In this document: positions 1 to 10,000 of the stretch, in pieces
Numbering within the stretch: the stretch's first letter is position 1
Layout of the letters: every line of letters starts with the position of its first letter
Assembly: GCF_020217025.1 (NCBI RefSeq)
Contig: NZ_JAIWOF010000170.1
Coordinates: forward strand, 1 to 10,000
Direction of reading: 5' to 3'
Source of the DNA: Flavobacterium sp.
Lineage (GTDB): Bacteria; Bacteroidota; Bacteroidia; Flavobacteriales; Flavobacteriaceae
Length of the DNA: 10,000 bases
The notes under the pieces: generated by a model
What the model saw: only the letters and a program-made list of their open reading frames with translations
What the model was told of the DNA's origin: nothing
The model's database searches: none
Position numbers and translations under genes: made by a program

Positions 1-6
1 ATTGAG

Positions 7-31
7 GTGAATCTTTATAAAAGTTATTCAC
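7..31. repeat. Imperfect inverted repeat near window edge
   Basis: GTGAAT (7-12) pairs with ATTCAC (26-31), and CTTT (13-16) can pair with AAAG (20-23) across a two-base bulge. It lies downstream of the small minus-strand gene that ends at 42. No T-run follows on the minus strand, so it is not a clear terminator for that gene. On the plus strand A/T-rich sequence with a T5 run follows, so it could end a plus-strand transcript coming from outside the window. It could also be chance in A/T-rich DNA. Confidence 0.3.
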
Positions 32-41
32 AATTTAGTTT

Positions 42-350
42 TTAAAGGGATGTTGAATGCTTATCTTTAATAGAAAGTTTAGCAATAGCTTCAGCATTTT
101 TATCAGAAGAATTAGCTGAAGTTCCAGTAACAAAAACACCTTTCAATCCGTATTTGGAAACGATTCCGTAGACGGTTGCTGCGTCATCTGGATTAGAGTT
201 GCCTTCGTAATGGTAAATGTGATTGATGGTATAATTTTCGGGATGCAAAATTATATCTTCTTCATTTTGATTGAAATCAAATGTAAACCCTTTCTCTCTT
301 AATTTTCTTAGCGCTTCAGAGACAGAAGCATAGTGATAAATAGTTGACAT
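42..350 (-). CDS. Small conserved hypothetical protein (102 aa)
   Basis: A 102-residue soluble protein with no signal peptide or membrane segment. The N-terminal part reads like a short helix-strand unit (YHYASVSEALRKLREKGFTFDF) followed by an acidic stretch (NQNEEDIILHPENY). A strand region (HIYHYEG, residues 44-50) and a glycine-rich part (YGIVSKYGLKGVFVTG, 61-76) come next. From memory, similar ~100-residue proteins of Flavobacteriaceae often carry the name 'phosphoribosylpyrophosphate synthetase'. Nothing here supports that: the PRPP-binding loop of Prs enzymes is absent and the protein is about a third of Prs length. It is a single-gene unit with its own putative promoter, divergent from rnpB. 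The function is unknown; I am confident that the frame is coding. Confidence 0.85.
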   Translation of the reverse strand: MSTIYHYASVSEALRKLREKGFTFDFNQNEEDIILHPENYTINHIYHYEGNSNPDDAATVYGIVSKYGLKGVFVTGTSANSSDKNAEAIAKLSIKDKHSTSL

Positions 351-380
351 AAGAATTAAGTATTATAAATTTGCGACCTC

Positions 381-413
381 TAAATTTACGAATATATTAG
401 CTCTTAAAAGCAA
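381..413 (-). promoter_or_regulatory. Putative promoter of the 102-aa gene
   Basis: On the minus strand TTG (413-411, within TTTTG) is followed after 22 bases by TAAATTTA (388-381), one mismatch from the Bacteroidota -7 element TAnnTTTG. The predicted start is about 25 bases upstream of the ATG at 350. The match is imperfect in a very A/T-rich region, so this is tentative. Confidence 0.45.
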
Positions 414-444
414 AAGATTATGTTAAACTATCTATTAAAATTTC

Positions 445-474
445 TTTAAAACGATAGAATTTGTTGTAAGTTTG
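445..474 (+). promoter_or_regulatory. Putative rnpB promoter
   Basis: TAAGTTTG (467-474) matches the Bacteroidota -7 element TAnnTTTG exactly. A T-rich TTTCTTT (441-447) sits about 19 bases upstream in the -33 position, without the usual G. Transcription would start about 5-7 bases downstream, close to 479-481, which is exactly where the 5' strand of the RNase P RNA P1 helix begins. That agreement supports both calls. Confidence 0.65.
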
Positions 475-478
475 CACC

Positions 479-792
479 GCAGACCGCCTTATCGTCCGTG
501 TGTAAGCATGGTAGGAAAGTCCGGACACCAAAGAGTAGCATAGTGGGTAACGCCCATCCGCCGAAAGGTGAGGACAAGTGCAACAGAAAGTATGTACAGG
601 TAATGCTGTAGTGAAACCAGGTAAACTCTATGCGGTGAAATGCCAAGTATATCAGCAGTTTTTGAGTAATCAAAATAAGGGCGACTCGTCCGATGTTGAA
701 GGGTAGGCAGCTTGAGTTACACAGTAATGCGTAATCTAGATAAATGATAAGGCTCCGATTTATCGGAGACAGAATCCGGCTTATAGGTCTGC
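479..792 (+). ncRNA. rnpB: RNase P RNA (class A)
   Basis: This is the catalytic RNA of ribonuclease P, which removes 5' leaders from precursor tRNAs together with the RnpA protein. The ends pair as helix P1: GCAGACC (479-485) with GGTCTGC (786-792). The universally conserved cores are in order: GGAAAGTCCGGAC (513-525, P4 5' side), GGGTAACGCCC (545-555), GTGCAACAGAAAG (578-590), ACCAGGTAAACTC (616-628), GGGTAGGCAGCTTGAG (701-716), CTAGATAAATGA (736-747) and GACAGAATCCGGCTTAT (768-784, P4 3' side). A perfect hairpin CTCCGA-TTTA-TCGGAG (753-768) stands in the P18 position. The length of about 314 bases is normal for a class A RNA. A T7 run (793-799) directly follows P1 and is the likely end of transcription. 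rsmD converges on it from the right, 21 bases away. Confidence 0.96.
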
Positions 793-813
793 TTTTTTTA
801 TTTTGTGACGATT

Positions 814-1392
814 TTATCCTTCGTCTTCCTCTTCATAATCCTCTTCTTCGTCGCTTTCGAATTCGTAAAAAGAAAATACAGAACCTCCGTAACTTTTTGA
901 AAAGGAAAAATTTGTCAAATGATCTAGTTTGGTATGTTTCGAATGTTCTACAATTAACATTCCTTCTTCGTCTAAAAGCTCGTTTTCAAAAATAAGTTGA
1001 ATGATTTTTTCAAAGTTCTCCTGACTCAAATCATATGGTGGATCAGCAAAAATAATATCATAACTTGCTTTACTTTTTTCTAAGAATTTGAAAACATCAC
1101 TTTTAATTACGCTAATATCTAAATCTAATTCCGTTGCCGTTTTTTTGATGAAATTTACACAACCCATGTCGCCATCAACACTAGTTATTGGTCCAGCACC
1201 ACGAGAAGCGAATTCGTAACTGATATTACCAGTTCCTGAGAATAAATCCAAAACTTTTAAACCATGAAAATTAAAGTAATTATTCAAAATATTGAATAAC
1301 GATTCTTTACACATGTCGGTTGTAGGACGAACAGGTAAGTTTTTCGGAGCTACTAAACGGCGCCCTTTGTGTTTTCCGGAGATAATTCTCAT
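814..1392 (-). CDS. rsmD: 16S rRNA (guanine(966)-N(2))-methyltransferase RsmD
   Basis: RsmD methylates N2 of G966 in 16S rRNA on the assembling 30S subunit, with S-adenosylmethionine as donor. The family opening MRIISGKHKGRRL (residues 1-13) and RPTTDMCKESLFNIL (22-36) are present. The SAM-binding motif is LDLFSGTGN (48-56), followed by FASRGA (61-66). The catalytic N-methyltransferase motif is DPPY (117-120), and YGGSVFSFYEF (168-178) is close to the normal C-terminus. After it comes an unusual acidic tail (179-192), 11 of whose 14 residues are Asp or Glu. The ATG shares four bases (ATGA, 1389-1392) with the stop of the DUF3822 gene, suggesting translational coupling as the last gene of a three-gene operon. 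Product identity is secure; the role of the tail is unknown. Confidence 0.96.
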   Translation of the reverse strand: MRIISGKHKGRRLVAPKNLPVRPTTDMCKESLFNILNNYFNFHGLKVLDLFSGTGNISYEFASRGAGPITSVDGDMGCVNFIKKTATELDLDISVIKSDVFKFLEKSKASYDIIFADPPYDLSQENFEKIIQLIFENELLDEEGMLIVEHSKHTKLDHLTNFSFSKSYGGSVFSFYEFESDEEEDYEEEDEG

Positions 1393-2201
1393 GAATGATA
1401 AAGTATAAAGTGATTTCTCAATTCTGAAGAAGAAACGTCTAAGATTGAAGCTTTGTTTGAAACATCAAGTAAAGAACAGTTTCTAATATATTTAAAAGCA
1501 ATTTTATAAAAGGCATCTTCTTCTGTACAATTTCCAAAAAGCTGAACTGAAATCGTTTCTGGATTTAATTGTAATTGTTCGCAAGTAAACAAGATGAAAT
1601 AAATAAAATCTTCTGGAGTGTTATATTGAAATGAATTAAAAAGTAGTAATTGCTGATTTTTTACCACAACAATTTCAAAATGCTCTTTTTGAAGATGCAC
1701 AAAAACTTGCTTTTCTTCTTTATTTTTGGACAAATCTAATAGTTGTTTTACTAAAATAGAATTAGCATTCTGATATTCAAAAGTTTCGTATTGGTCTAAC
1801 AAGAAATTATTAATATTAACGAAAGGAACATAAACATTATTCATTTCGTATGGAAAAATAACATCATGGGTAAAAAAATCAGTTTCAAAAACTTTGGTAT
1901 TGTATTGCAAATAACTTGCTAAAAAATGAACATCAAATAGGGAAGTAGGCACAAAAGTATTCAAGTTATTATCATGAATTACCATTACTTCATCAAATGA
2001 TTTTGTAAGAATAGGATAATCGACGAAAGTACGCCACAATTGTTCTTCAATTACTTTGTTTTTTTCAAAGAGAATTGACATGGTGTTTATTACTTTGTTG
2101 GAAAGTAAATCAAAGACACAAAAAGAAAGTCCACTCAAGGAAACCTGAATGGACAACTTTTTGTATGTTTTTTGAGTAATGTCGTTATTCGTTATTACCA
2201 T
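1389..2201 (-). CDS. DUF3822 family protein
   Basis: A 270-residue soluble protein recognised as DUF3822, a Bacteroidota family that I know as a regular upstream neighbour of rsmD. Recognisable parts are the N-terminal strand region KKLSIQVSLSGLSFCVFD (14-31) and PYEMNNVYVPFVNINNFLL (117-135). The conserved C-terminal half has FVHLQKEHFEIVVVKNQQ (167-184), FNSFQYNTPEDFIYFIL (188-204) and ISVQLFGN (217-224). That order (paired strands, a helix, then a strand ending in 'G') resembles an actin-like (ASKHA/PilM) subdomain by eye; this is inference. No catalytic motif is visible. The ATG lies 17 bases inside the preceding gene, and the stop overlaps rsmD by four bases, so the three genes form one unit. 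Function unknown. Confidence 0.9.
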   Translation of the reverse strand: MVITNNDITQKTYKKLSIQVSLSGLSFCVFDLLSNKVINTMSILFEKNKVIEEQLWRTFVDYPILTKSFDEVMVIHDNNLNTFVPTSLFDVHFLASYLQYNTKVFETDFFTHDVIFPYEMNNVYVPFVNINNFLLDQYETFEYQNANSILVKQLLDLSKNKEEKQVFVHLQKEHFEIVVVKNQQLLLFNSFQYNTPEDFIYFILFTCEQLQLNPETISVQLFGNCTEEDAFYKIAFKYIRNCSLLDVSNKASILDVSSSELRNHFILYHS

Positions 2202-2946
2202 ATTTTTTTGGCCAGTTTCCTGAAAGTGTAACTTCTTCTAGTGAACCTAAAATAATTTGAGGACCGTTGATTTCATCAATAGACTCTACTTTATTTTCTT
2301 GTTTTACTAATTCTTGATCTAAATCTTTTAATAAAGCATTTTTGTCAATAATAGCTTGGAATACAGAAAGATTCGAGTCGTTTCTAGAAACTACACCTGT
2401 TTTCATTACAACAGGAACTTCAACTTCACCAACTTTTACAACATTTAATCTTTTGTATCTGTCAGAATTTTTAAATAATGAATCTTTTACTTTAACAGTT
2501 CCTAATTTAGTGATAATTACTTCATCTTTGAAGAAACCACCAACTCCATCAGCTCCAACTTTAATCCCAAAAGCAGTATTTTTAGCAGCATCAATTACAG
2601 CAGTATCTTTTCTTGAAACGATTTCAAATTCACCATTTTCAACAAATTTTACTAATTCGTCAAAAGTGTCAGCATATTTTCCATTAACAGACTTGTAACC
2701 TGTTTGTAATTTTTTAATGTCTAACATTGTTTTAACAGCTACTTCGTAACGACTTTCTTTTTCTTTTTGAAACTCAATAGGTTTCATAATTGAAGAATAA
2801 ATTAAGTATAGAAGAAAAAATGAGATTCCCCATAATAAAATGGTGAAAACTTTTTTATTTCCTGGTGTAACGAATTTATCAATTAGTTTAACCAATGCAA
2901 AGATTAAAATAACCAATACGACTAAATAAATAGCAATTTCTAACAT
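2185..2946 (-). CDS. Two-TM membrane protein with pilin-like segment, function unknown
   Basis: A 253-residue protein with two N-terminal membrane helices (about 4-22 and 33-53) joined by a short polar loop, then a soluble domain of about 200 residues. Just after the second helix, YEVAVKTMLDIKKLQTGY (67-84) and VNGKYADTFDELVKF (87-101) resemble the part of type IV pilins and pseudopilins after the hydrophobic helix (helix, then 'GkY..tfdeL'). There is no prepilin peptidase site. A hydrophilic C-terminal tail (202-253) is rich in Asp, Glu, Lys and Asn. It is the first gene of the operon with DUF3822 and rsmD, and overlaps DUF3822 by 17 bases. I do not recognise a named family. Confidence 0.88.
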   Translation of the reverse strand: MLEIAIYLVVLVILIFALVKLIDKFVTPGNKKVFTILLWGISFFLLYLIYSSIMKPIEFQKEKESRYEVAVKTMLDIKKLQTGYKSVNGKYADTFDELVKFVENGEFEIVSRKDTAVIDAAKNTAFGIKVGADGVGGFFKDEVIITKLGTVKVKDSLFKNSDRYKRLNVVKVGEVEVPVVMKTGVVSRNDSNLSVFQAIIDKNALLKDLDQELVKQENKVESIDEINGPQIILGSLEEVTLSGNWPKKYGNNE

Positions 2947-2978
2947 TTGAATAATTTATTTTTAGTTAAATAGGTACG

Positions 2979-3008
2979 CAAATCTACAATTTTTTTTTCT
3001 ACACAAAA
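2979..3008 (-). promoter_or_regulatory. Promoter of the two-TM/DUF3822/rsmD operon
   Basis: On the minus strand TTTTG (3008-3004) is followed after 17 bases by TAGATTTG (2986-2979), an exact TAnnTTTG. The predicted start lies about 25-28 bases before the ATG at 2946. Both elements and their spacing fit the Flavobacterium consensus, so this is one of the better promoter calls here. Confidence 0.65.
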
Positions 3009-3032
3009 GAATTTCTTGTAAAAATCATTCAG

Positions 3033-3040
3033 TATATTTG
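3033..3040 (+). promoter_or_regulatory. Putative -7 element of the helicase gene
   Basis: TATATTTG is an exact match to TAnnTTTG and places the start about 22 bases before the ATG at 3069. The nearest TTG (3016-3018) is only 14 bases upstream, short for a -33 element; TTT at 3012-3014 has a spacing of 18. It is divergent from the operon promoter at 2979-3008. Confidence 0.45.
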
Positions 3041-3068
3041 AAAAATTAATATTGGCCAAATCTTTTTT

Positions 3069-4493
3069 ATGACTTACAAGCTGTTTTACAATTTATTACA
3101 AAATAATTTTCCGCATCAACCCACTCTAAAACAGGATATTTTTTTTCAGAAAATTGCCGATTTTATTTTGAACTCAACTTCTGATGATATTTTTATCCTC
3201 AAAGGTTATGCCGGAACGGGTAAAACAACCATAATTTCTACCGTAATTAATAATTTAGGTGATGTTAATATGAAAGCTGTATTACTTGCACCAACAGGTA
3301 GAGCAGCTAAAGTAATCAGTAATTACTCTGGAAAACCGGCTTATACGATTCATAAACGAATTTATTTCCCCAAAAAAAATAAAACTGGAGGCGTTAGTTT
3401 TACATTGCAACAAAATAAATTTAAAAATACCTTATTTATAGTCGATGAATCTTCTATGATTTCGGATAATAACCAAGATTCTAAATTGTATGAAAATGGT
3501 TCGTTGTTAGATGATTTGTTTTTTTATGTGGATGCTGGAAATAATTGCAAACTTTTATTAATAGGAGATACCGCTCAGTTGCCGCCGGTTAACATGAGTG
3601 TGAGTCCGGCTTTGGATATTGACTCGCTTTCGCTTCATTATCAAAAAAATGTACATCATATTGAGTTGGATGAAGTGATGCGTCAAGCGGAACATTCTGG
3701 AATTTTGTATAATGCTACGCAGTTACGTGAATTATTACATTCGCATTTTATTGATACGTTCCAATTTAAATTGAAAGGGTTTAAAGATATTGTTCGTTTA
3801 CAAGATGGTTATGAAATTCAAGATGCGATTCATCAAGCGTATGATAATTATAGTATAGAAGACACAGCTTTTATTTTGCGTTCCAATAAAAGAGCGAATC
3901 AATACAACCAACAAATTAGAGCTTCCATTTTGTCTAAAGAAAGTGAAATTTCAACTGGAGATTATTTAATGGTAGTGAAAAACAATTATTTCTGGTTACC
4001 CGAAAATTCAGAAGCAGGTTTCATCGCTAATGGTGATATTGTCGAAATTCTAGAAATCAGAAAAATTCAAGAACTGTATGGATTCAAATTCGCTACTGTA
4101 AAAATCAGAATGGTGGATTATCCGAATCAAATTCCGTTTGACACTGTTATTATGTTAGATACGATTATGAGTGAATCGCCTTCATTAACATATGAAGAAT
4201 CGAATAAATTGTATCAGGAAGTTTTATTGGATTATGAAGAAGAACGCCAACAATATAAAAAACTACAAAAAGTAAAAGAAAACCCTTATTTCAATGCACT
4301 TCAAGTGAAGTTTTCATATGCGATAACGTGTCATAAATCGCAAGGTGGTCAATGGAAAACCGTTTTTGTAGAACAACCTTATTTACCCGACGGAATTGAT
4401 ATCGATTATGTCCGCTGGTTGTACACTGCCATCACGCGTGCTGAAGAAAAATTATATTTAATCGGATTTAAAGATGAGTTTTTCGAAAATTAA
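3069..4493 (+). CDS. RecD-like SF1 DNA helicase / AAA family ATPase
   Basis: A 474-residue ATP-dependent helicase of superfamily 1 (RecD/Pif1-like). Walker A is GYAGTGKTT (46-54), motif Ia LAPTGRAA (73-80), Walker B FIVDESSM (123-130) and motif III LLIGDTAQLPPV (163-174). EVMRQ (202-206) carries the arginine of motif IV. The C-terminal UvrD_C_2-type block YAITCHKSQGGQW (417-429) and motif VI YTAITRAEE (452-460) complete the set. It is far shorter than RecD2 and lacks that protein's long N-terminal extension. No RecB or RecC partner is nearby, so it probably acts alone in repair or replication, in the cytoplasm. A single-strand DNA translocase or 5'-3' helicase activity is inferred from the family. 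kdsB begins 27 bases after its stop. Confidence 0.93.
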   Translation: MTYKLFYNLLQNNFPHQPTLKQDIFFQKIADFILNSTSDDIFILKGYAGTGKTTIISTVINNLGDVNMKAVLLAPTGRAAKVISNYSGKPAYTIHKRIYFPKKNKTGGVSFTLQQNKFKNTLFIVDESSMISDNNQDSKLYENGSLLDDLFFYVDAGNNCKLLLIGDTAQLPPVNMSVSPALDIDSLSLHYQKNVHHIELDEVMRQAEHSGILYNATQLRELLHSHFIDTFQFKLKGFKDIVRLQDGYEIQDAIHQAYDNYSIEDTAFILRSNKRANQYNQQIRASILSKESEISTGDYLMVVKNNYFWLPENSEAGFIANGDIVEILEIRKIQELYGFKFATVKIRMVDYPNQIPFDTVIMLDTIMSESPSLTYEESNKLYQEVLLDYEEERQQYKKLQKVKENPYFNALQVKFSYAITCHKSQGGQWKTVFVEQPYLPDGIDIDYVRWLYTAITRAEEKLYLIGFKDEFFEN

Positions 4494-4501
4494 TACTTTT
4501 G
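4494..4501 (+). promoter_or_regulatory. Possible -7 element for kdsB
   Basis: TACTTTTG matches TAnnTTTG exactly, just after the helicase stop codon and 19 bases before the kdsB ATG. No good TTG is present 17-23 bases upstream. kdsB may have its own start here as well as readthrough from the helicase gene. Confidence 0.35.
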
Positions 4502-4520
4502 TAATCAAACAAAATCGAAC

Positions 4521-5246
4521 ATGAGAATAATAGCTGTAATTCCCGCAAGATATGCTTCAACTCGTTTCCCTGCAAAATTAATGCAAGATTTGGGAGGCAA
4601 AACCGTAATTCTTAGAACGTATGAAGCGGCTATTTCCACAAATCTATTTGATGATGTTTTTGTGGTAACGGATTCTGATTCAATTTTCAACGAAATTATT
4701 TCGAGTGGAGGAAAAGCCATCATGTCGATAAAAGAACACGAAAGCGGAAGCGACAGAATTGCAGAAGCTGTTGAACATATGGATGTTGACGTTGTAATTA
4801 ACGTTCAAGGCGACGAACCTTTTATAAATAAAAAACCTTTAGAAGAACTAATTGAAGTTTTTAAAAACGATTTAGAAAAGAAAGTTGACTTAGGCTCTTT
4901 GATGTTTCAAATAGCTGATAAAGAAGAAATTAATAATCCAAATAACGTAAAAGTTATAACAGACCAACAAGGTTTTGCGTTATACTTTTCACGTTCGGTG
5001 ATTCCGTATCCTAGAGAAGAAAATGTAGGCGTTCGTTATATGAAACACATCGGAATTTATGCTTTCAGAAAAGAAGCTTTGATGGATTTTTACCGCTTAC
5101 CCATGTTGTCGTTAGAAGCTTCTGAAAAATTAGAGCAATTACGTTACTTAGAATATGGAAAACGCATTAAAATGGTAGAAACTTCTCACGGAAGTATCGG
5201 AATAGATACTCCTGAAGATTTAGAAAAAGCGAGAAAGTTATTGTAA
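4521..5246 (+). CDS. kdsB: 3-deoxy-manno-octulosonate cytidylyltransferase (CMP-KDO synthetase)
   Basis: KdsB activates KDO with CTP to give CMP-KDO and pyrophosphate, the sugar donor for the inner core of lipopolysaccharide; it is cytoplasmic and Mg-dependent. The nucleotide-binding opening is [14 protein letters not shown] (7-20). [11 protein letters not shown] (73-83) and NVQGDEPFI (94-102, with metal-binding Asp98) form the active site. IGIYAF, then [17 protein letters not shown] and the final GIDTPEDLE are the usual C-terminal blocks. The 241-residue length is normal. It shows that the organism makes a KDO-containing LPS. No other LPS gene is adjacent. The gene runs head-on into the channel gene with four bases between the stop codons. 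Confidence 0.97.
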
Positions 5247-5250
5247 TTAA

Positions 5251-5955
5251 TTATTCTGTTTTATCACTAAAATAGCCTCTAGTTTTAATTTTAGAAGAAA
5301 AGAAATTCATAAACAAAATAACAAAGAAAAGAAATAAAAATACTTGTAGAATAGTAAATATTTTTCCTTCCATTGTTATTGGATAATATTCTCCATAACC
5401 TATTGTAGAAGAGGTTACAAAACTATAATATACCGCATCAAACCAATGATTTAATGTTGCATTCAAGTAATTTCCAGTTCTGTAAAATACTGCAAAAGCT
5501 AAAACCGATTCTAAATAATTGAAAAATAGCAACAACATCGATCTTTTATAAGAACGAGGTTGGGAAAACAAATCAGAAGCAAAAATTAGCGTTGGAATGT
5601 ACAAAACCGTCTCTAAAAGAATATAAATCAATATAAAAACCACAAAGTGATTGGTTTGCCAATTATTTACAAGAATTAAAATAGGGAAGATAACTTTTGC
5701 TAAAATATAAAAGTCCATTACTAAATCTTTGTATTCATATCCAAATTTATTAGCAAAATGCTTAATGTAAATTCCAGGAAATAATAATTGTGAGGAAGAA
5801 AGAAATAAACGTACTATCTTTTCAATTCCATTATCTTCTTCATGATCATTGTTCCAAATAGCTCTAATATTTAGAATTGTTTTTTTTAATGGACTAAAAT
5901 TATGGTGGTTGAGTTTATTAACTTTTCCAACTAATAATTTTTTAACTATGCTCAT
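5251..5955 (-). CDS. Potassium-channel-type ion channel, single pore loop
   Basis: A 234-residue inner-membrane protein. The selectivity filter TIGYGE (184-189) stands in for the canonical TVGYGD. It is preceded by the pore helix HWFDAVYYSFVTSS (170-183) and followed by the inner helix (about 196-219). Upstream hydrophobic helices lie at about 84-97, 103-127 and 138-158, giving perhaps four membrane segments with one pore loop, so a tetramer is expected from the family. The basic, non-membrane N-terminus (1-80) has no recognised domain and there is no RCK/TrkA-N domain. The ATG overlaps the stop of the upstream spermidine-synthase-like gene by one base (TAATG), so the two are probably translationally coupled. 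Potassium selectivity is inferred from the filter; gating is unknown. Confidence 0.88.
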   Translation of the reverse strand: MSIVKKLLVGKVNKLNHHNFSPLKKTILNIRAIWNNDHEEDNGIEKIVRLFLSSSQLLFPGIYIKHFANKFGYEYKDLVMDFYILAKVIFPILILVNNWQTNHFVVFILIYILLETVLYIPTLIFASDLFSQPRSYKRSMLLLFFNYLESVLAFAVFYRTGNYLNATLNHWFDAVYYSFVTSSTIGYGEYYPITMEGKIFTILQVFLFLFFVILFMNFFSSKIKTRGYFSDKTE

Positions 5956-6617
5956 TACGATAATTTTTTAATGGTAAACAATTCGTTGTGCACTTCAATT
6001 TTTGGATACAATCTTACGGAATAATTACTATCAAATTTACTTTTATAAGTAGCGTTTCTTCTTCTGTCTTGATAATCTAAAATCATAGTATTAAACAAGA
6101 TAAATCCATTTACATTAAGTAAAAAATTAATTCTATTAATAAAGAAATCTTCAAATAAAAAATTAGGCATTGTCGTATCTTGAAAGATATCAATAATGAT
6201 TAAATCATATTTTTCTTTGGTTTTTAAAACGAATTCAAAAGCATCATCATTCACAATTGAAACGTTATTATAGTTTCCTAAACCAAAATATTTTCTAGCC
6301 ATTTCAATCACAGTAGCATCAATTTCTACTCCTGTAATTTTACCTTCAAATTTTACTTCTTTTTTTAGAGTTTCAATTACGCTTCCACCAGCAACGCCAA
6401 GTACTAAAATATTTTCAAATGTGCTAATTCTTTCGTAACCAATATATTTTAATCCTTTTTTTAGTACACGCTGTAGACTACCAAAAGAATAATTCGTATT
6501 CTCAGAATCTAAAACCAAATGTCCATTATTCCAGGTAACTTCTAGATTTTTACTGTAAACCGATTTCTTTTGATGAATTTTTATAGGTAATAAAAAACTC
6601 AATACGCGCTTAATCAT
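5955..6617 (-). CDS. Spermidine-synthase-like SAM-fold protein
   Basis: A 220-residue protein with a Rossmann-type methyltransferase/aminopropyltransferase fold. The glycine motif is LVLGVAGGSV (71-80), the acidic loop GVEIDATVIEMARKYFGL (96-113), NDDAFEFV (123-130) is the 'gDa' motif, and YDLIIIDIFQDTTMPNFLF (137-155) is the strand-4 region. This pattern matches the spermidine synthase (SpeE) superfamily. It is shorter than SpeE (about 280 residues), lacks much of the N-terminal beta domain, and I do not see the clear 'DSsDP' polyamine-site motif. It may be a methyltransferase or a divergent aminopropyltransferase. No signal peptide is seen. It is the first gene of a pair with the channel gene. 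Confidence 0.85.
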   Translation of the reverse strand: MIKRVLSFLLPIKIHQKKSVYSKNLEVTWNNGHLVLDSENTNYSFGSLQRVLKKGLKYIGYERISTFENILVLGVAGGSVIETLKKEVKFEGKITGVEIDATVIEMARKYFGLGNYNNVSIVNDDAFEFVLKTKEKYDLIIIDIFQDTTMPNFLFEDFFINRINFLLNVNGFILFNTMILDYQDRRRNATYKSKFDSNYSVRLYPKIEVHNELFTIKKLS

Positions 6618-6626
6618 GTAATTTTG

Positions 6627-6656
6627 TTTGTAATCGTAAATATAATTTTATTTTTG
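6627..6656 (+). promoter_or_regulatory. Promoter of the acyltransferase gene
   Basis: TTTG (6627-6630) is followed after 18 bases by TATTTTTG (6649-6656), an exact TAnnTTTG. The start is predicted near 6662, giving a leader of about 12 bases before the ATG at 6674. Both elements and their spacing match the Bacteroidota consensus. Confidence 0.65.
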
Positions 6657-6662
6657 TCTCAA
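6637..6662 (-). promoter_or_regulatory. Possible promoter of the spermidine-synthase-like/channel pair
   Basis: On the minus strand TTG (6662-6660) is followed after 15 bases by TATATTTA (6644-6637), one mismatch from TAnnTTTG. Spacing is a little short and the match imperfect. It overlaps the divergent acyltransferase promoter, so the two would compete for polymerase. Confidence 0.35.
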
Positions 6663-6673
6663 AATAGTCTCTA

Positions 6674-7228
6674 ATGAAACAAATTATATACAAATTTATT
6701 TTCTGCAAAATTTTCGGATGGAAAGTAATCGGTACAATTGCACCAGAAGTAAAAAAATGCGTGTTAATAGCGGTTCCACATACGAGTTGGTGGGATTTCT
6801 TTCTTGGAATTTTCTCTCGTGGAATTCTTAATCTAGAAATTAATTATGTAGCTAAAAAAGAATTATTCGTATTTCCTTTTAATTATTTCTTTACTTGGAC
6901 AGGAGGAACTCCTCTAAATCGCCAAAAAAACGAGAATAAAGTAGATACAATTGCTAAAATATTTCAAGAAAAAGATGTTTTTAGATTAGCAATCGCACCA
7001 GAAGGAACTCGAAAAAAAGTAACCGAATGGAAAACGGGATTTTATTACATGGCATTAAAAGCAAATGTTCCAATTATTCCTGTAGCGTTTGATTACGGAA
7101 GAAAACAAGTAGTGTATCACGAACCATTTTACCCAACGGGAAATATTGAAGCTGATTTAAAATTTTTAAAATCGTATTACAAAGATGTAATTGGTAAAAT
7201 TCCTGAAAAAAGTTTTACAAATATTTAA
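6674..7228 (+). CDS. PlsC-type 1-acyl-glycerol-3-phosphate acyltransferase family protein
   Basis: A 184-residue acyltransferase of the PlsC/LPLAT family. All four family blocks are present: motif I HTSWWD (36-41, the H-X4-D catalytic pair), motif II GGTPLNR (77-83), motif III APEGTRKK (108-115, phosphate-binding EGTR), and motif IV NVPIIPVAFD (131-140). The family transfers an acyl group to lysophosphatidate or a related acceptor at the inner membrane. This version is shorter than PlsC proper (about 240 residues) and has no strong N-terminal membrane helix, so it probably binds the membrane surface. The acceptor cannot be told from sequence; it could also act on ornithine or other amino lipids. 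It is a single-gene unit closed by the terminator at 7237. Confidence 0.9.
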   Translation: MKQIIYKFIFCKIFGWKVIGTIAPEVKKCVLIAVPHTSWWDFFLGIFSRGILNLEINYVAKKELFVFPFNYFFTWTGGTPLNRQKNENKVDTIAKIFQEKDVFRLAIAPEGTRKKVTEWKTGFYYMALKANVPIIPVAFDYGRKQVVYHEPFYPTGNIEADLKFLKSYYKDVIGKIPEKSFTNI

Positions 7229-7236
7229 AAAAATAG

Positions 7237-7263
7237 AACTCTGGAGAAATTCAGAGTTTTTTT
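7237..7263. terminator. Bidirectional intrinsic terminator
   Basis: AACTCTG (7237-7243) and CAGAGTT (7252-7258) form a perfect 7-bp stem around an 8-base loop. A T7 run (7257-7263) follows on the plus strand. On the minus strand CTATTTTTTT follows (7236-7227). It therefore serves both converging genes, the acyltransferase and the XRE regulator, whose stop codon (7262-7264) overlaps the T-run. Confidence 0.88.
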
Positions 7264-7723
7264 ATGGTTTATAGTTTTTAAAAGTACCATTTTTAAAAAA
7301 CACTACAATGCGCTCAATTTCTTCGTGAGAATTATTTTCTGTTTTAGACGATTCTACAGGATTAGGTTCTGAAAGGGTAGAAGCAATTCCTTTTTCTACA
7401 GTCGAAAACAAATCAGGTTCCGAACTAGTGTTTTCTAAAATTGGTAGTGAAGCAGATTTTTTTTCAATTTCTAAAACTGTTGGAACACCATTTTCTGATT
7501 TTGGAAAATTTCCTTTTCCATTCAAAATCCAATACAAATCTACTTCAGGAAAAACCTCAATTACTTTGATGATAAAATCTAAGCTAGGTTTATTTCTACC
7601 CGAGAGTAGGTGAGATAGACTCGAGCGCTGTACATTGATTTTATCCGCAAAAGCAGAAGCCGATAAATTATAATAATCGAGTATAATTTCTAACCGTTTA
7701 ATAAAATCATCAATGTTTACCAT
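7262..7723 (-). CDS. XRE-family helix-turn-helix transcriptional regulator
   Basis: A 153-residue cytoplasmic regulator. The N-terminal HTH_3 domain spans about residues 5-67: ASAFADKINV (22-31) is helix 2 and turn, VQRSSLSHLLSGRNKPS (31-47) carries the recognition helix, and DLYWILNGKGNF (62-73) closes the domain as in many Bacteroidota members. A Ser/Glu/Pro/Thr-rich linker (about 75-136) leads to a conserved-looking C-terminal tag ERIVVFFKNGTFKNYKP (137-153), perhaps a dimerisation strand. There is no peptidase (LexA/CI-type) domain. It is divergent from the M14 gene across an array of TTTAC-N4-GTAAA palindromes, one overlapping its start codon and one its -7 box. Autorepression and control of the M14 gene are therefore likely, but inferred from position only. 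Confidence 0.92.
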   Translation of the reverse strand: MVNIDDFIKRLEIILDYYNLSASAFADKINVQRSSLSHLLSGRNKPSLDFIIKVIEVFPEVDLYWILNGKGNFPKSENGVPTVLEIEKKSASLPILENTSSEPDLFSTVEKGIASTLSEPNPVESSKTENNSHEEIERIVVFFKNGTFKNYKP

Positions 7724-7799
7724 TGTAAATAGTTGTTTTAAATTACAGAGTTACAAATGTAAACAAAGTAAAAGAAATACACAAGTTTACAGATGTAAA
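7716..7799. promoter_or_regulatory. Operator cluster A (three TTTAC-N4-GTAAA palindromes, XRE side)
   Basis: Three copies: TTTACCATTGTAAA (7716-7729), GTTACAAATGTAAA (7750-7763, one mismatch in the left half) and TTTACAGATGTAAA (7786-7799). Centres are 34 and 36 bases apart. The first covers the XRE start codon (7721-7723), the second contains the XRE -7 box, and the third is just upstream of the -33 TTG. Binding here should block XRE transcription. The binding protein is inferred to be XRE itself. Confidence 0.8.
7754..7784 (-). promoter_or_regulatory. Promoter of the XRE regulator gene
   Basis: On the minus strand TTG (7784-7782) is followed after 20 bases by TACATTTG (7761-7754), an exact TAnnTTTG. 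The start would be near 7748, about 25 bases before the ATG. The -7 box lies wholly inside the operator copy at 7750-7763. Confidence 0.7.
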
Positions 7800-7862
7800 T
7801 AACGATATGTATATTAAATATAAGCTTTATTTAGATTATCATAACTAATTGATTTATAAAAA

Positions 7863-7876
7863 ACAACATATGTAAA
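7863..7876. promoter_or_regulatory. Degenerate operator-like palindrome at the midpoint
   Basis: ACAACATATGTAAA keeps the right half-site GTAAA and a perfect core ACATATGT, but the left half is poor. Its centre is 77 bases from the last copy of cluster A and 78 from the first copy of cluster B, almost exactly midway. It may be a weak site or chance. Confidence 0.35.
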
Positions 7877-7940
7877 TTGTGAATAAGTTAATGTTGTAAA
7901 TTAATACGATGTAGGGTAATATAATCTGTAATTAAAACCG

Positions 7941-8012
7941 TTTACAAAAGTAAATTTCATAACATTTTCACATGTTTACAAATGTAAAATTAAAGTTGTT
8001 TACATTTGTAAA
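7941..8012. promoter_or_regulatory. Operator cluster B (three TTTAC-N4-GTAAA palindromes, M14 side)
   Basis: Three copies with perfect half-sites: TTTACAAAAGTAAA (7941-7954), TTTACAAATGTAAA (7975-7988) and TTTACATTTGTAAA (7999-8012). Centres are 34 and 24 bases apart. The last contains the best -7 candidate for the M14 gene and ends 13 bases before its ATG at 8026. Binding should repress the M14 gene. Confidence 0.82.
8001..8008 (+). promoter_or_regulatory. Putative -7 element of the M14 peptidase gene
   Basis: TACATTTG is an exact TAnnTTTG inside the operator at 7999-8012. The -33 position has only TTT (7975-7977, spacing 23), so this is weaker than the XRE promoter. The start would be near 8013-8015, leaving a leader of 11-13 bases before the ATG at 8026. 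Confidence 0.5.
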
Positions 8013-8025
8013 TCAAAATAAAACC

Positions 8026-9180
8026 ATGGATTATTTACAATTAGCAACTCAATATTTAGAGCTAAAACTAAAAGGCAAGTATATTTATTTAGATAACATT
8101 TTACCTCTTTTAAACTCTTTGAATTCTGATTTTGAAATTACTCAAATAGGAAAATCGGTTCAAGGAAGAGCTATTCATCAAGTAAAAATTGGAACTGGAA
8201 CTACCAAAATTTTAATGTGGTCGCAAATGCATGGAAATGAATCAACGACTACAAAAGGATTATTTGATTTCTTCAATTTCTTGAAATCGGATAATGAAAT
8301 AGCAAATCGAATTAAATCGGACTATACTTTATTGTGTATTCCTATGCTAAATCCAGATGGTGCTTTCTTATATACGAGAGAAAATGCTAACAAAGTGGAT
8401 TTAAATAGAGATGCTTTTAATGCTACTCAGCCTGAAATGCAAATCTTGCACAGCGTTTATAAAAGTTTTCAGCCAGATTACTGCTATAATTTACACGATC
8501 AACGAACTATTTTTGGAACAGAAGGCTTTAATTTACCTGCAACCGTCTCTTTTTTATCACCAGCTTATAATGAAGAGAGAGAATATAACGAAGTGCGTTT
8601 AAAAGCAATCCATATAATAAACAATATGAATAATGCGTTACAACTTTATATTCCAAATCAAGTTGGGCGTTTTGATGATGGTTACAATGTCAATTGTACA
8701 GGTGATTATTTCACAACGCAAAACACTCCAACGATTTTATTTGAAGCTGGGTATTATAAAGATGATTATAATAGAGATATTGTAAGAAAATTTATTTTTA
8801 TTTCGCTTTTAAGTTCATTTGATGGAAGTTACGAAAACGTTATAGTTGATAAAGAATTGAATAATTATTTGAAGATTCCTCAAAATAACAAATGTTTTTA
8901 TGATTTTATTTATAAAAATGTCAAAATTATTGATAATAATGAAGAAAAAATAATTAACTTTGCAGCTCAATATACTGAAGCAGTGCAAGATGGTCAGTTA
9001 AAATTTGTGGCAACTATCGTTAAAATTGATGATTTGCAGGATTTTAAAGGACATTTAGAATACGATTGCGCAAATGGTTTGTTTGAATCTAAAGGGGAAT
9101 ATTTTCCCAAAATAGAAGATAAAGCCGATTTTTTTATCAATAATTTAACAGAATTTAACAATGGTGTAAAAATTATTTGA
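8026..9180 (+). CDS. M14-family zinc carboxypeptidase-like protein
   Basis: A 384-residue protein with the M14 metallopeptidase fold. Zinc ligands are H69 and E72 (MHGNES) and H157 (NLHDQ). NPDG (109-112), DLNRDAF (125-131, substrate-binding Asn/Arg) and the catalytic glutamate E240 in LFEAGYY complete the site, so it should be active. A further C-terminal part of about 130 residues has no recognised domain. There is no signal peptide, so it is probably cytoplasmic, possibly an amidase or peptidase acting on imported peptides or muropeptides (inference). I chose ATG 8026 (MDYLQLATQYLE); the upstream in-frame ATG at 7972 would add 18 residues encoded by two operator palindromes. The start at 8026 leaves the promoter and operators in non-coding DNA. 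It is followed by an Lrp-type gene after 57 bases. Confidence 0.9.
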   Translation: MDYLQLATQYLELKLKGKYIYLDNILPLLNSLNSDFEITQIGKSVQGRAIHQVKIGTGTTKILMWSQMHGNESTTTKGLFDFFNFLKSDNEIANRIKSDYTLLCIPMLNPDGAFLYTRENANKVDLNRDAFNATQPEMQILHSVYKSFQPDYCYNLHDQRTIFGTEGFNLPATVSFLSPAYNEEREYNEVRLKAIHIINNMNNALQLYIPNQVGRFDDGYNVNCTGDYFTTQNTPTILFEAGYYKDDYNRDIVRKFIFISLLSSFDGSYENVIVDKELNNYLKIPQNNKCFYDFIYKNVKIIDNNEEKIINFAAQYTEAVQDGQLKFVATIVKIDDLQDFKGHLEYDCANGLFESKGEYFPKIEDKADFFINNLTEFNNGVKII

Positions 9181-9188
9181 TAAATTTG
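9181..9188 (+). promoter_or_regulatory. Possible -7 element of the Lrp-type gene
   Basis: TAAATTTG is an exact TAnnTTTG directly after the M14 stop codon, placing a start about 44 bases before the ATG at 9238. No convincing TTG lies 17-23 bases upstream. The Lrp gene may be transcribed from here, from the M14 promoter, or from both. Confidence 0.4.
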
Positions 9189-9237
9189 CCTCAGTTTTGA
9201 ATAAAAATCAAAAATTTAACAAATATTATAAGCACTT

Positions 9238-9717
9238 ATGAGTAAGTTTCGTTTAGATGAAGTAGATCATCAAATTTTGGACATGTTGATTGATAACACG
9301 AGAGTTCCTTTTACAGATATTGCAAAAAAATTATTAATTTCTGCAGGAACGGTACATGTTAGGGTGAAAAAAATGGAAGATGCTGGAATCATTCAAGGTT
9401 CTTCTTTGACATTAGATTATGAAAAATTAGGATATTCTTTCATTGCTTATGTTGGTGTTTTCTTGCACAACACGTCTCAAACTAAATTCGTTTTAGAACG
9501 AATTAATCAAATTCCTTTCGTAACTGTTGCTCACGTAACTACAGGGAAATTTAATATTTTCTGTAAAATTAGAGCTAAAGATACCAAACACGCTAAAGAA
9601 GTTATCTTCATGATTGATGATATCGAAGGTGTGTACAGAACTGAAACCATGATTTCTTTAGAAGAAAGCATCAACGACAAAAAACGATTGATGCATACGA
9701 TTTTTAAAGAATTGTAA
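9238..9717 (+). CDS. Lrp/AsnC-family transcriptional regulator
   Basis: A 159-residue regulator with the usual two-domain layout. The N-terminal winged HTH begins LDEVDHQILDMLIDNTRVPFTDIAKKL (6-32), with the recognition helix in SAGTVHVRVKKMEDAGII (35-52). The RAM (AsnC ligand-binding) domain follows from about residue 65 to 145, including YSFIAYVGVFL (66-76), VTVAHVTTGKFNIFCKI (94-110) and EGVYRTETMISLEE (129-142). Length is normal. The family forms dimers to octamers and senses amino acids or other small ligands; the ligand is not predictable here. It lies 57 bases after the M14 peptidase gene in the same direction and is closed by the terminator at 9724. Identity is secure, target genes unknown. 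Confidence 0.95.
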   Translation: MSKFRLDEVDHQILDMLIDNTRVPFTDIAKKLLISAGTVHVRVKKMEDAGIIQGSSLTLDYEKLGYSFIAYVGVFLHNTSQTKFVLERINQIPFVTVAHVTTGKFNIFCKIRAKDTKHAKEVIFMIDDIEGVYRTETMISLEESINDKKRLMHTIFKEL

Positions 9718-9723
9718 AATACG

Positions 9724-9749
9724 AAAGCCTCATTATTGAGGCTTTTTTT
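9724..9749 (+). terminator. Intrinsic terminator after the Lrp-type gene
   Basis: AAAGCCTCA (9724-9732) and TGAGGCTTT (9737-9745) form a perfect 9-bp stem with a TTAT loop. A run of seven T (9743-9749) completes it. It starts six bases after the Lrp stop codon and ends 13 bases before the ATG of the next gene. Confidence 0.92.
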
Positions 9750-9762
9750 ATATCTTTAAGTT

Positions 9763-10000
9763 ATGAAAAATTTACAACCAAATGAATTTGCTCATTATTA
9801 TGAGAATTATATCAAGCTGGTTCCTGAGCAAGATATTATAAAAGGACTTACTAAGCAAAAAGGAGAAATGTTGCATTTCTTTAAATCGATTCCTGTTTTT
9901 AAACATGAATTTAGATATGCAGAAGGCAAGTGGACGATAAAAGACATTATTCTGCATTTAATTGATGCGGAAAGAATATTTGTGTATCGTGCTTTACGTA
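9763..10000 (+). CDS. DinB-fold family protein, 5' part (cut by window edge)
   Basis: The first 79 residues of a gene that runs off the right edge. YAEGKWTIKDIILHLIDAER (52-71) is the hallmark of the DinB/DinB_2 four-helix bundle; H65 in HLIDAER is the first of the usual three metal-binding histidines. FVYRALR (73-79) continues the pattern. Full-length members have about 170 residues. The family includes nickel- or zinc-binding proteins and thiol-dependent transferases (BshB2/YfiT-like); the substrate of this member is not evident. The N-terminus MKNLQPNEFAHYYENYI matches the family opening, so ATG 9763 is the likely start even though it lies just 13 bases after a terminator T-run. Confidence 0.88.
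   Translation, partial: MKNLQPNEFAHYYENYIKLVPEQDIIKGLTKQKGEMLHFFKSIPVFKHEFRYAEGKWTIKDIILHLIDAERIFVYRALR

Follow-up and report, generated by a model that had tools for sequence, protein, structure and literature searches.

An array of six palindromes lies in a 302-bp gap between divergent genes for an XRE-family regulator and an M14 zinc carboxypeptidase-like protein in a Flavobacterium sp. genome, and the array appears to accompany the regulator gene in most of the Flavobacteriaceae loci examined. From comparative sequence analysis, we consider it very probable that XRE is a dimeric dyad-binding protein that represses its own gene and also the divergent M14(-AsnC) unit, the whole constituting a local switch. 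The window, by which we mean the whole stretch analyzed, comprises 10,000 nt (contig NZ_JAIWOF010000170.1 of assembly GCF_020217025.1, positions 1 to 10,000, forward strand) of a genome represented by 2.53 Mb of sequence and 92.75% complete.

A preliminary description of this DNA had placed copies of TTTAC-N4-GTAAA at 7716, 7750, 7786, 7941, 7975 and 7999 and held that the array is confined to the gap between the two genes. Both statements were borne out: five copies are perfect and one (7750) has a single mismatch, and no further perfect or one-mismatch site was found anywhere in the 10-kb window. The palindromes, which have no strand, are referred to here as O1 to O6. O1 (7716-7729) overlaps the XRE start codon, O2 (7750-7763) is the one-mismatch copy and contains the predicted XRE -7 box, and O3 (7786-7799) lies upstream of the XRE promoter. 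On the other side, O4 (7941-7954) is found upstream of the M14 promoter, O5 (7975-7988) in the -33 zone of that promoter, 24 bp from O6, and O6 (7999-8012) contains the M14 -7 box. The array also shows a regular operator spacing of 34-36 bp. The region 7710-8029 has 21% GC and holds five perfect sites, or six with at most one mismatch, against shuffle means of 0.006 and 0.12, respectively; at least five perfect sites were obtained in none of 20,000 dinucleotide shuffles. At 7887 (slot +164) there is a weak seventh slot, with two mismatches in the window and at most one in some relatives. An AT-rich block near the centre of the gap (~7839-7855, TAA...A.TGAT), belonging to none of the six sites, is also conserved in the 81 gaps aligned below. 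No RNA element was detected in the gap when the window was searched against Rfam.

The XRE gene (7262-7723, minus strand) encodes 153 amino acids matching PF01381 (33.7 bits vs a cut-off of 23), with a helix-turn-helix (HTH) domain at about residues 1-70, a linker with a DLF motif and a C-terminal beta-hairpin, IERIVVFFKNGTF. Across the 110 loci described below, strong conservation is seen in the HTH and in the tail IERIVIFYKNGTF, and the linker is variable except for the DLF motif. In the AF2 model, likewise, the HTH is helical and predicted with confidence, the linker is disordered and the C-terminus forms a hairpin of two strands. A fold search with this model gave generic XRE matches, the nearest solved folds including 434 Cro, SinR, P2 C and P22 c2; all were weak (best E 0.008, none at E 0.001). 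The facing M14 gene (8026-9180, plus strand, 384 amino acids; PF00246, 55 bits vs a cut-off of 21.6) most likely starts at 8026 and not at the in-frame ATG at 7972 given in the list of open reading frames (ORFs), judging from alignment with relatives. H69, E72, R118, N127, R128, H157 and E240 are invariant in 20 M14 sequences; we take H69, E72, H157, R128 and E240 to have metal-binding or catalytic roles, and the protein retains the residues to be expected of an active zinc carboxypeptidase. No signal peptide was visible by eye. A gene for an Lrp/AsnC-family regulator (9238-9717, plus strand) follows M14 after 57 bp and is likely co-transcribed with it. Elsewhere in the window, a terminator-like hairpin of the intrinsic type (7235-7260), which works on both strands, separates the convergent genes for the acyltransferase and XRE, and a bacterial class A RNase P RNA was found at 476-799 (plus strand, 194.6 bits), so that a 75-aa ORF at 446-673 (minus strand) overlaps an RNA gene.

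The XRE gene is present in 186 of the 199 Flavobacteriaceae genomes surveyed (one genome per genus), and its named relatives belong to Flavobacterium and Flavobacteriaceae. The XRE profile also matched 93 of 148 genomes at the level of the order and 37 of 247 at that of the phylum, the latter mostly inside the order. We compared 110 loci, consisting of 80 named loci (the best 80 of 217) and 30 family loci (the best-scoring out of the 186 genomes with an XRE match), the window being one of the 30 (L096). The preliminary description had the array between divergent genes, and the divergent gene order recurs in 110/110 loci, with XRE and M14 on opposite strands and 270-358 bp apart; Lrp/AsnC follows M14 in 78 of the 80 named loci, the other two being interrupted by contig ends. 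Together the 110 gaps contain 319 perfect sites and 587 with at most one mismatch, compared with 0.45 and 11.85 expected from shuffles. At least two sites are present in all gaps except that of L099, which has one imperfect site only. The sites occupy slots near -7, +28, +63, +218, +252 and +276 relative to the XRE start, kept in register, and the 24-bp spacing occurs 103 times. Alignment of 81 Flavobacterium-type gaps revealed conserved blocks that are mainly the palindrome sites, the right half-site of O4 being its less conserved half. As a counterweight we took 20 of the 25 lowest-scoring family matches among those listed; M14 is present in 19 of these 20 stretches (1.6 kb away in one), and 18 of the 20 have two or more sites. 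The palindromes were expected in the preliminary description to be conserved wherever the XRE/M14 pair is, and the counts of 109/110 and 18/20 agree with this.

The sites coincide with predicted promoters on both sides. In Flavobacterium psychrophilum, the sigma-A -7 box is given as TAnnTTTG at -12 to -5 in the accessible part of PMC9723704. In the window the predicted -7 boxes, TACATTTG in each case, fall within O2 (7761-7754, minus strand) for XRE and within O6 (8001-8008, plus strand) for M14, so that among the six sites copies of one dyad overlap two predicted promoters. A TTG is found 20 nt upstream of the predicted XRE box in O2, and none is found 16-24 nt before the M14 box in the window. 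Among the 110 loci, a site encloses the -7 box in 101 on the M14 side and in 92 on the XRE side, and the slot over the XRE start is occupied in 102.

Genomes that lack XRE, a relocation of M14 and covariation with the XRE recognition helix all point to XRE, suggesting that the sites follow this gene rather than M14 or AsnC. M14 was sought in seven genomes without detectable XRE, namely G302 and six of the 13 family genomes in which XRE was not matched; this call of absence depends on how sensitive the search is and how complete the assemblies are. M14 is present in six of the seven, with AsnC next to it in each, and is missing from G003; within 400 bp upstream of M14 a perfect site occurs in none of the six XRE-less genomes and one imperfect site in two. 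The single-contig Flavobacterium genome G302 (L206) has no intact XRE match, and a decayed, frame-broken remnant of the XRE C-terminus is found upstream of its M14. In G326 (L196), XRE is preceded by six sites (2824-3239), five perfect and one imperfect, and M14-AsnC is located 31 kb away, with no site within the upstream stretch fetched for M14-AsnC. The gene next to these XRE-side sites is purL-like by eye and ends toward the gap. In G025, where the sites likewise lie beside XRE, M14 is 1.6 kb away and has no site of its own. Two or more sites accompany XRE in 146 of 155 loci where its recognition helix carries R33, compared with two of 15 (L168 and L169) where it does not; the tallied rows are related to each other, which confounds this covariation, and three of them are remote paralogues. 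Sites of the TTTAC-N4-GTAAA type turn rare where the XRE helix differs.

Two other proteins could be proposed to bind the array. Lrp-type proteins wrap DNA across several evenly spaced sites, and the 34-36-bp spacing in the window would fit wrapping by the Lrp/AsnC protein encoded after M14, as would the 33-36-bp spacing common in the 110 loci; AsnC is also 92-100% identical in 78 named loci. However, the six genomes with M14-AsnC and no XRE (AsnC 71-92% identical) lack the array, on which ground we rejected AsnC as the binder; moreover, the sites are kept at XRE loci whose fetched stretch includes no AsnC (L166, L167, L168, L184, L192 and L196), and in G326 AsnC was relocated with M14 while the array was left behind. 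Taken together, we regard binding by AsnC as quite improbable. The preliminary description had raised a BlaI/MecI-type repressor encoded elsewhere, binding the TACA-NN-TGTA dyads, whose core resembles bla/mec operators. The window's own genome does have one weak PF03965 match (24.4 bits vs a cut-off of 22.6, in a 586-aa frame), but clear PF03965 proteins are present in 6/6 XRE-less genomes, all without the array, and PF03965 is absent in 3/3 genomes with XRE and sites (G264, G267 and G330). These repressors thus do not track the array, their distribution being opposite to it in nine of the 11 genomes searched, with G326 having both and the own genome the weak match; this alternative is not supported, and we hold it to be extremely unlikely.

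With XRE as the predicted binder, its own gene is the firmest candidate target, because the sites cover the XRE promoter box and start codon and persist at XRE loci without M14. In families f8-f11, XRE was found in five fetched loci, with sites near it in four and none in L182, and no M14 relative was found in the 10 genomes tested at a threshold of E 1e-20. Since these families keep XRE with no M14 relative, XRE would have a role apart from M14, and it may serve another role in small-genome families without M14. Four loci of such families (L181, L183, L184 and L192) have one site at the XRE start and a second ~180-200 bp upstream.

That M14 is a target as well is suggested by the position of O6 on its -7 box and by the fixed 24-bp spacing of O5 and O6. 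The whole array might instead serve XRE autoregulation only, for example by looping, with M14 a bystander sharing the gap. Consistent with this, XRE and sites occur without M14 in f8-f11 genomes, and the clusters of G326 and G025 stay with XRE, away from an M14 that has no site of its own, which indicates that M14 control is dispensable. Such a reading does not account for the fixed O5-O6 distance or for the M14 -7 box held by O6 in 101/110 loci. It also fits poorly with f5, where XRE and M14 are ~0.8-3.2 kb apart and a site with at most one mismatch nevertheless lies just before the separated M14, at 47-65 bp in seven of nine genomes and at -18 or -19 in the other two (f5 starts being extrapolated). 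We therefore consider a bystander role for M14 unlikely. The repeats could also be promoter boxes only, with no need for a repressor, as TTTACATTTGTAAA includes TAnnTTTG, the F. psychrophilum sigma-A -7 box in the accessible part of PMC9723704, and this motif lies inside O2 and O6. Yet O1, O3 and O5, which hold no box for the gene faced, are conserved in both half-sites, and the XRE-less locus L206 still has TACTTTTG before M14 with the perfect palindrome absent. Promoter boxes alone are thus a barely credible explanation.

Control by XRE may extend to a small wider regulon beyond the gap. The full-genome scan for TTTAC-N4-GTAAA proposed in the preliminary description gave 20 perfect sites in the own genome, five in the gap and 15 elsewhere, the latter equal to the count of 15 in a backwards-read control. 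With the tighter pattern TTTACANNTGTAAA and one mismatch allowed, 54 matches were retrieved vs 20 in the control, six of them in the gap among the matches listed, and in 61 genomes of the genus TTTACANNTGTAAA gave 212 matches vs 36. The gaps contribute ~1.55 such matches per genome (80 loci), so that an excess of about one per genome falls outside them and the gaps explain the surplus only partly. Among 40 out-of-gap sites hand-picked from the listed places, 36 are within predicted ORFs and four between, and no recurring neighbour was found beside them, the flanking ORFs forming only pairs of similar proteins.

The sites, their conservation, their linkage to XRE and their overlap with the -7 boxes can be read directly from the DNA. 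The dedicated autoregulated switch suggested in the preliminary description gains support from the conserved gaps and from sites that track XRE and not M14/AsnC; from these we infer XRE binding, repression and cooperativity as follows. An XRE dimer would bind TTTACA-NN-TGTAAA dyads, three per side, O1-O3 for XRE and O4-O6 for M14. On the XRE side, O2 would block the -7 box, with O1 over the start codon and O3 upstream; on the M14 side, O6 would cover the -7 box, with O5 and O4 upstream. The regular spacing suggests cooperative filling and possibly bridging between the two clusters. Both promoters would be released by a signal, for which the conserved C-terminal hairpin of XRE is the probable point of action. 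A more speculative extension, to which we give little weight, is a nearly family-wide peptide-sensing feedback circuit, in which the XRE hairpin would sense a peptide or muropeptide, M14 would destroy the inducer or trim the tail of XRE, and the switch would be made sharp by the six-site array.

No description of the XRE-M14 pair or of the array was found in the literature searched, and the word XRE is absent from the accessible part of PMC9723704. An otherwise uncharacterised regulator of a large environmental family hereby gains a predicted operator and two local candidate targets, and the uncharacterised M14 peptidase a route toward its role. The system also offers a test bed for repression in Bacteroidota where operator and sigma-A -7 box overlap, and natural losses of XRE yield predictions that can be checked by comparing expression.

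Lambda-type repressors act on operators in sets of three, OR1-3 and OL1-3. Shared with these are a small HTH_3-fold repressor, multiple copies of one dyad over two promoters and autoregulation, here predicted. In contrast, the present system is chromosomal, family-wide and located beside a peptidase, and its XRE carries a C-terminal hairpin on a long linker, with no self-cleaving domain found; there is no second Cro-like gene adjacent, and no opposing Cro-type repressor across the operator, the facing gene being M14 in 110/110 loci. In its workings the arrangement resembles the repressor operators of phages, but apart from the shared dyads it lacks the features that define them. Restriction-modification controller (C) proteins and HigA antitoxins, both in the fold-search list, are likewise small XRE autorepressors with local dyads, but the partner here is an M14 enzyme and not a toxin or nuclease; HigA itself (TIGR02607) was rejected for XRE (21.3 bits vs a cut-off of 47.7). 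M14 shares the PF00246 domain and catalytic-type residues with MpaA and other M14 peptidases, but at 23.2 bits it falls far below the MpaA equivalog cut-off of 157 (NF007897). Together, these comparisons suggest that the local autorepressing XRE switch would be a new form of a known regulatory type.
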